From contig CADBRR010000003.1 in NCBI GenBank assembly GCA_902797145.1, forward strand, positions 1 to 35,450: a stretch of 35,450 bases of DNA. Reading direction: 5' to 3'. The position numbers and the translations under genes are program-made. Shown here in pieces: positions 7,278-32,374 of the stretch. Within the stretch, counting starts at the first letter, position 1. Every line of letters starts with the position of its first letter. The notes below the pieces were generated by a model. The model saw only the letters and a program-made list of their open reading frames with translations, made no database searches and was not told where the DNA came from. The stretch comes from an uncultured Eubacteriales bacterium (GTDB lineage Bacteria > Bacillota > Clostridia > Christensenellales > CAG-138).

Positions 7278-7349
7278 GTAGTTTCACCTCCTTGATTTAT
7301 TTATGGATATGAATTCTTGTTTATTGCGATAAAAATCTACTGCAATAGA

Positions 7350-7470
7350 AAGTCCTCTGCCTTTCGAGCAGAGGACGATATCACACTAACATATCAATAC
7401 AAGGTATTTACCTTATTTTTTCTGTCTCGGGTGGATATTTAAGCGGAAACCGCACCAACTGTCTATGGCA
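7350..7470 (-). ncRNA. Ribosomal protein L10 leader
   Basis: The transcript between the promoter at 7488-7516 and rplJ carries the hallmarks of the L10 leader: a GAGACAG element and the GGTGCGGTTTCCGCTTAA region (about 7437-7456). It ends in a strong hairpin next to a short T-tract. L10 leaders bind L10-L12 to control rplJL expression. The assignment is by recalled sequence pattern, and boundaries are approximate. Confidence 0.8.
7352..7376 (-). terminator. Attenuator hairpin in the L10 leader
   Basis: A perfect 9-bp stem (GTCCTCTGC 7352-7360 with GCAGAGGAC 7368-7376) is followed on the minus strand by TTTCTATT. It lies about 75 bases before rplJ, so it probably acts as a regulated terminator, not as an operon end. 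Confidence 0.75.
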
Positions 7471-7487
7471 GTATTCAATTCTTACCT

Positions 7488-31538: not shown

Positions 31539-32225
31539 TCAATTTCTTTGTCTTTTTCGCATTCTCTGCCAATTTATGAACCCATAAATATCATTTACAA
31601 GGAACACAACAAAGCAAATAACCATAGACAAATAATTTATATTTTCAAGCGAAGCAAGCACCCACAGAACGATAAGTACAATATCATTAAGCGCATAAGC
31701 GACCGCATAGAAGGGACTTCTGCACGCAACCATATACGCAGCAGCGAAACTTGTTATAACAGAAAGTGTGCTAAATAGGAGGTTAGGCGTATTAAAAAAA
31801 TTTAGCACAAAATAGAAAATAATAGTTACAATAACTCCCAGCACAAACATAATGCAAATTTTCTTTTTTGTAAGCGTACTTACTTCTACTTCATTCGTAT
31901 CTTTAAACGGATGTTTGAGCCACTCTATAAGCGAAACAACCGCCATAGGAAGCGACATAAACACATAGGTTGCAAACTCACCATAATAATGGAAAGTCAA
32001 AGAAACAATCCCATACATAAGCGCAAAAATTATCATTAGCATTTGACCTAAAGCAAGGCCCTTTGCATTGAACACGAGCGCAGTTACGCCTATAATTGAT
32101 GCTATTATCGAAAACAAATCGTTTGCGCCTGAAATTATGTTTGAAAATATAACAACAGCAAGTGATGAAGCAAGCAATATTTTTTCAAACATATCAAATT
32201 CTTTAAACCCTAAAAATATCTTCAT
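31539..32225 (-). CDS. pnuC: PnuC-family transporter (nicotinamide riboside or related vitamin precursor)
   Basis: A 228-aa integral membrane protein with about seven to eight hydrophobic helices. The C-terminal family signature is FYAVAYALNDIVLIVLWVLA and FLVNDIYGFINWQRM (about 210-224), with conserved Asn-Asp pairs and Trp. PnuC proteins facilitate diffusion of vitamin-like nucleosides; relatives carry riboflavin (RibM/PnuX) or thiamine (PnuT). The substrate is not certain from sequence. It has its own promoter inside the end of the acyltransferase gene and a structured leader with a terminator, which suggests regulated expression. Confidence 0.9.
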   Translation of the reverse strand: MKIFLGFKEFDMFEKILLASSLAVVIFSNIISGANDLFSIIASIIGVTALVFNAKGLALGQMLMIIFALMYGIVSLTFHYYGEFATYVFMSLPMAVVSLIEWLKHPFKDTNEVEVSTLTKKKICIMFVLGVIVTIIFYFVLNFFNTPNLLFSTLSVITSFAAAYMVACRSPFYAVAYALNDIVLIVLWVLASLENINYLSMVICFVVFLVNDIYGFINWQRMRKRQRN

Positions 32226-32244
32226 TATGTTACCTCACAAAAAA

Positions 32245-32326
32245 ACATTCACAACACATCTTCAAATCTTTTCGATTTGACCTAACAACGTGTACGTGAA
32301 TGTATCCATTCTTTCCCCGGTGGGAA
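32245..32326 (-). promoter_or_regulatory. Attenuator-like leader of pnuC (possible riboswitch)
   Basis: On the minus strand: a 5' hairpin TTCCC/GGGAA (32313-32326), then an alternative hairpin GAATG-GATA-CATTC (32298-32311). An intrinsic terminator follows (ACATTCAC 32296-32303 with GTGAATGT 32245-32252, inner TCAAATC/GATTTGA stem at 32262-32280, then seven T). Hairpin two and the terminator share CATTC and cannot form together. I do not recognise a known riboswitch class. Confidence 0.65.
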
Positions 32327-32345
32327 TTATTAAATTATAAGTCAA

Positions 32346-32374
32346 AGTTTAACATAATTACTCCGATTTGTCAA
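32346..32374 (-). promoter_or_regulatory. Promoter of pnuC
   Basis: TTGACA (32369-32374), 17-bp spacer and TAAACT (32346-32351) on the minus strand, giving a leader of about 115 bases. Confidence 0.7.

Follow-up and report, generated by a model that had tools for sequence, protein, structure and literature searches.

What does the RNA leader in front of this pnuC gene sense, and what does the transporter encoded behind it carry? The window, a stretch of 35,450 nucleotides from an uncultured Eubacteriales bacterium, has the leader on its minus strand, flanked by an acyltransferase-like gene (stop at 32358) on one side and by pnuC (start at 32225) on the other. The initial annotation proposed that the leader is riboswitch-like and that it could sense the transported vitamin precursor. 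Our analysis supports the first proposal and not the second. We consider it quite probable that this is a guanidine-IV (GGAM-1/mepA) riboswitch, which acts through transcription termination on the PnuC-family transporter gene behind it, and that this PnuC most likely releases guanidinium or a close derivative. The features on which we base this view are listed here.

32346..32374, minus strand: possible promoter, TTGACA and TAAACT separated by 17 nt, with an extended TG
32339..32334, minus strand: TATAAT, an alternative -10 element (motif scan)
32333..32226, minus strand: leader upstream of pnuC, with hairpins P1 and P2 and a terminator
32326..32313, minus strand: P1 hairpin, UUCCC-ACCG-GGGAA (99.3% of P1 cells paired in 89 leaders)
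32321..32319, minus strand: ACC in the P1 loop, 5ʹ half of the kissing pair
32311..32298, minus strand: P2 hairpin, GAAUG-GAUA-CAUUC, a candidate antiterminator
32302..32246, minus strand: terminator hairpin (P3) with a conserved internal loop, GUUAGGUC..GAA (fold and covariation)
32280..32282, minus strand: GGU in the loop of the terminator, 3ʹ partner of ACC in the kissing pair (covariation)
32263..32279, minus strand: extra apical hairpin, CAAAUC-GAAAA-GAUUUG, in place of the usual 3-nt loop
32245..32239, minus strand: U-run (seven U) of the intrinsic terminator
32236..32233, minus strand: ribosome binding site, GAGG, with the terminator U-run just upstream
32225, minus strand: ATG start codon of pnuC
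31539..32225, minus strand: pnuC-family transporter gene, 228 aa, “Y-ND” subfamily (PF04973, E 2e-31; TIGR01528 above cut-off)

The promoter call is weak, since two sites were found where 1.6 are expected by chance. The folds and coordinates agree with the earlier description of mutually exclusive hairpins, and of a 5ʹ TTCCC/GGGAA hairpin, before pnuC. As also described, the terminator ends just before the ribosome binding site and shares an arm with the GAATG-GATA-CATTC hairpin: CAUUC is both the 3ʹ arm of P2 and the 5ʹ arm of the terminator. P1 and P2 together are the fold of a transcript cut at 77 nt, and P1 with the terminator is the best fold of a longer one. Calculated without the kissing pair or a ligand, the terminator fold (-27.3 kcal/mol) is favored over the P2 fold (-21.4 kcal/mol) by about 6 kcal/mol. 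The fold z-score relative to chance is -3.1 for the leader, and -3.9 without its tail. Three features were absent from the earlier description: the terminator loop GUUAGGUC..GAAG, which is conserved, the kissing pair that this loop forms with that of P1, and the apical hairpin.

The leader is a conserved RNA that recurs across many genera. The same leader precedes PnuC relatives of ~50% identity in other genera, and covariation among related pnuC leaders, which the initial annotation had named as a check, is strong. For 14 leaders, 95.9% of cells are paired, and 16 of the 25 pairs vary on both sides; for 89 leaders, the corresponding values are 97.3% and 20 of 25. None of 500 shuffles was as good in either case, and slid controls for the 89-leader alignment were 31–48% paired. 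The terminator loop is near-invariant (GUUAGGUC UUN GAAG), and its GGU pairs with the ACC of the P1 loop (98.8% paired in the 89 leaders, with two-sided changes in two of the three pairs). Most copies have ACC:GGU; many copies upstream of MATE, GAP and SugE genes have GCC:GGC, and one MATE copy has GUC:GAC. A covariance model was run on sampled genomes: of 396 from the order, 84 have the motif, and these represent 53 of 143 genera; of 391 from the class, 74 have it. The motif is present in Clostridia and in other Bacillota. The window's own genome has one copy. The covariation and this distribution in many genera bear out a riboswitch-like leader.

To which class does this RNA belong? No Rfam 15 family scored above its gathering threshold for the leader or its relatives, in line with the earlier statement that this is not a TPP, FMN or preQ1 riboswitch. 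E-value thresholds were also tried, and the only matches to the leader were snoRNAs, which we take to be chance. Published guanidine-IV riboswitches have two hairpins that interact through a kissing loop, and the 3ʹ hairpin is a Rho-independent terminator; reported key positions are the pairs A29-U72 and C30-G71 and the conserved G77 in Clostridium botulinum, and the conserved G66, U67 and G72 in L. lactis (PMC7736828, PMC11611296). The leaders described here share the two hairpins, the ACC:GGU kissing loop, the terminator as second hairpin, and the occurrence in Bacillota. Mapped by the published numbering rather than by sequences, the key nucleotides correspond to ACC:GGU and to the G that follows the U at a distance of five bases. 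This GU-4 nt-G spacing is kept in nearly all relatives; in the window copy the conserved G is present but is set apart by a 12-nt hairpin. Furthermore, the published C. botulinum rescue mutant A29G/U72C, which has GCC:GGC, is a natural variant among our leaders. The match to guanidine-IV rests on positions numbered in the text of the papers together with gene context. Since the leader matches a known class, the very finding that the initial annotation had named as speaking against novelty, it is not a new class.

The gene context points the same way. Among 160 copies of the motif, the gene behind it encodes PnuC in 113 cases, MATE in 28 and SMR/SugE in four, the rest being others; 80 further loci gave 58, 11 and one (SMR), respectively. 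These linked genes agree with the published list for guanidine-IV, which comprises SugE, MATE and PnuC (PMC7736828, PMC11611296). It is the combination of PnuC, MATE, SMR/SugE, SfLAP and NimIJ-like genes behind one RNA that pointed to guanidine-IV. That PnuC is a guanidine-IV target is already known: Lenkeit 2020, by the authors of the class, reported PnuC and MATE among its targets and proposed them to be guanidine exporters (PMC7736828). Guanidine-IV is an ON switch (Lenkeit 2020), with an affinity for guanidine of about 0.2 mM (PMC7736828, PMC11611296). The ligand of the copies described here is most likely guanidine, and regulation is most likely ON, by antitermination. Because the leader is a copy of a guanidine-sensing class, the pnuC gene behind it is more likely to act on guanidine than to take up a vitamin, despite its label as a vitamin B3 transporter.

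Could the pnuC-linked leaders instead be a specificity variant of the guanidine-IV fold that senses another guanidine-like or amine-like compound? There is a precedent in Gd4v, an orphan variant of this fold; in Gd4v the D1 position is never G, and an apical hairpin, D2, is present (PMC9788692). The same 2022 paper reported the apical hairpin to be absent from sugE-linked guanidine-IV RNAs, and Gd4v to be mostly linked to the PRK07324 transaminase and not to SugE (PMC9788692). The window copy resembles Gd4v in its overall fold and in its D2-like apical hairpin, a 12-nt insertion that sets it apart from published guanidine-IV RNAs, and the pnuC leaders have a P2 hairpin of their own and a dedicated PnuC subfamily. 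However, the apical stem (UCAAAUC-GAAAA-GAUUUGA instead of a triloop) is found in the window copy only, one of the 160 copies compared, and is missing from its relatives. No transaminase gene was seen downstream among the 240 loci examined, whereas linkage to SugE is present, and the main text on Gd4v makes no mention of PnuC (PMC9788692). Moreover, the core of the pnuC leaders, CGUUAGGUCUUAG, is the same in the two sugE-linked leaders L257 (Lentilactobacillus diolivorans, of the Lactobacillus group) and L182. We therefore regard a specificity variant as unlikely. An argument for a distinct ligand that equated G62 of L. lactis with D1, where pnuC leaders have U, was dropped, because sugE-linked leaders have the same U. 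At the candidate D1 positions, the window copy is identical to its sugE-linked relatives. We keep the window copy in guanidine-IV because it shares with its relatives both the kissing pair and the remaining near-invariant loop positions. Nonetheless, since the published contrast was drawn on sugE-linked RNAs, the apical hairpin lowers the certainty of the ligand for the window copy, although not for the branch.

A second alternative is that the leader is an NAD+ or nicotinamide riboside riboswitch, similar to NAD+-II, that serves vitamin B3 uptake. Two observations make this worth considering: nicotinamide riboside transport is the annotated function of pnuC, and a pnuC-linked riboswitch of this kind exists, since NAD+-II is found in pnuC leaders of Streptococcus, where it forms a pseudoknot with the ribosome binding site and binds NAD+, NMN and NR (PMC7749635, PMC8632094). 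The likeness is one of location before pnuC genes; the architecture differs, since the leaders described here have a terminator and covarying kissing loops within the leader. In addition, the same RNA precedes MATE, SugE, SfLAP and NimIJ-like genes, and a full-length NadR-like gene is present in only three of 30 motif-bearing genomes. The proteins argue in the same direction. The window PnuC belongs to the same family as Neisseria mucosa PnuC (PDB 4QTN), which it matches over its whole length (E 1.7e-16). Two tryptophans of 4QTN, W182 and W185, form a WxxW pattern that we take to be the signature for nicotinamide riboside binding. In riboswitch-linked PnuCs they are replaced by A/S/G and by Y (rarely F), respectively, the window protein having A and Y; likewise, V188, N189 and S221 of 4QTN are replaced by N188, D189 and, nearly always, D221. 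On the basis of gene context, RNA architecture and these residues we reject sensing of NAD+ or of a vitamin precursor, and we judge an NAD+ or nicotinamide riboside riboswitch to be very improbable. The vitamin precursor proposed for this leader is probably the wrong ligand, on two counts: the RNA matches guanidine-IV, with the same core before SugE and MATE genes, and the Trp pair that marks the nicotinamide riboside transporter is missing from the PnuC subfamily linked to it.

How closely are the RNA and this PnuC subfamily associated? All 163 motif-linked PnuCs that we compared are of the “Y-ND” type, and none has WxxW. The motif accompanies 69 of the 150 PnuC genes listed in the order. Among 60 motif-less PnuCs that were fetched, 25 are of the WxxW type and 29 of the “Y-ND” type; the motif was found with none of the 25 WxxW-type PnuCs (Fisher p 2e-11), so that it is strictly linked to one PnuC subfamily. 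The 29 motif-less PnuCs of the “Y-ND” type are a point against our main reading. The subfamily is defined by its residue pattern, since the PnuC tree gives the split no strong support (0.44). From these residues, we read riboswitch-linked PnuC as a putative branch not devoted to nicotinamide riboside, in which the new acidic residues may serve a cation such as guanidinium. A consideration against guanidinium export is that a facilitator with the PnuC/SWEET fold would not pump uphill.

In the window's genome, we found no match to the NadR kinase and no full NadR, and NAPRTase is present. This genome therefore would not have to rely on nicotinamide riboside. nadA is also absent, which, taken alone, favors none of the explanations. 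Elsewhere, at two motif-less loci (L338 and L337, in genomes G339 and G045), a WxxW-type pnuC adjoins a NadR-like gene, as would be expected of a pair that salvages nicotinamide riboside. Genomes of genus g44 (G186, G313, G333, G441 and others) have motif-less pnuC-like frames of 420–550 aa, which are perhaps fusions.

The remaining alternatives can be dealt with briefly. An ordinary attenuator or plain intrinsic terminator without a ligand would account for the typical terminator, but one would not expect it to keep unpaired nucleotides almost unchanged, to have kissing loops that covary or to precede several genes that are unrelated to each other, so that this is a still poorer candidate than an NAD+ riboswitch. 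A chance structure in an AT-rich leader, the poorest candidate of all, could be entertained on a z-score near -3, which alone is modest, and is already refuted by the covariation and by the recurrence in the sampled genomes of order and class.

If the leader is a guanidine-IV riboswitch, as we favor, what is the significance of P2? The pnuC-linked branch differs from published guanidine-IV RNAs in having a conserved P2 hairpin that uses the 5ʹ arm of the terminator. In pnuC leaders, the 5ʹ arm of P2 matches the 5ʹ arm of the leader's own terminator at 85%, as compared to 78.3 ± 0.7% when arms are dealt among sequences (0 of 1000 as high). MATE leaders have no such excess (56.8% versus 56.1% dealt), and they lack the conservation and covariation that P2 has in the pnuC branch. 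This pattern of sequence conservation suggests that P2 is a competing antiterminator arm in the pnuC branch. We propose that, without ligand, the full terminator would form and transcription would stop before pnuC. Guanidinium bound at the kissing loops would lock P1 to the upper part of the terminator hairpin; P2 would then hold the lower 5ʹ arm of the terminator, and RNA polymerase would read through into pnuC. PnuC would in turn most likely let guanidinium or a close derivative leave the cell. The authors of the 2020 study described the ON mechanism as unclear, with an aptamer that includes the terminator stem (PMC7736828). For the pnuC branch, P2 would give a specific answer to the question they raised, namely how ligand binding can prevent termination when the aptamer itself contains the terminator stem. 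More tentatively, the pnuC branch could be a variant in which P2 is a true antiterminator and an acidic-pocket PnuC that once took up vitamin B3 now releases guanidinium or a gut-relevant derivative, and in which RNAs that have gained an apical hairpin, like the window copy, could be evolving toward a different ligand; we see this combined reading as possible, and as falling somewhat short of probable. In the guanidine-IV papers that we consulted, we found no statement on P2 conservation in pnuC leaders or on the split in PnuC residues.

The RNA is not flagged by Rfam 15, yet it occurs in about one fifth of the sampled genomes of the order and class. Since it is common but unflagged, many pnuC genes have probably been misread as genes for vitamin B3 uptake. 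The PnuC residue pattern provides a simple test for proteins to recheck as guanidinium transporters.

Other genes behind the motif are also of interest. NimIJ-like proteins with a pyridoxamine-oxidase fold are encoded directly behind it at three loci (L158, L160 and L250), including one in Selenomonas ruminantium, and are possible candidates for a new guanidine-linked enzyme. Membrane proteins of the SfLAP family (PF11139) follow it at L112, L098 and L106; SfLAP is a possible further family of guanidine exporters. At one locus (L363, G176:C314) the riboswitch lies between a tandem pair of pnuC genes. We also considered whether PnuC replaces SugE, given that SMR genes are absent from 29 of 30 motif-bearing genomes, the sole match being a 306-aa frame. 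This idea was rejected: motif-less genomes of the order also lack SMR genes, so their absence is not specific.

Two further RNA elements lie on the minus strand of the window: a known regulatory RNA, the ribosomal protein L10 leader (RF00557, 67 bits), at 7337-7486, and a tRNA-Arg (anticodon ACG) at 2303-2379.
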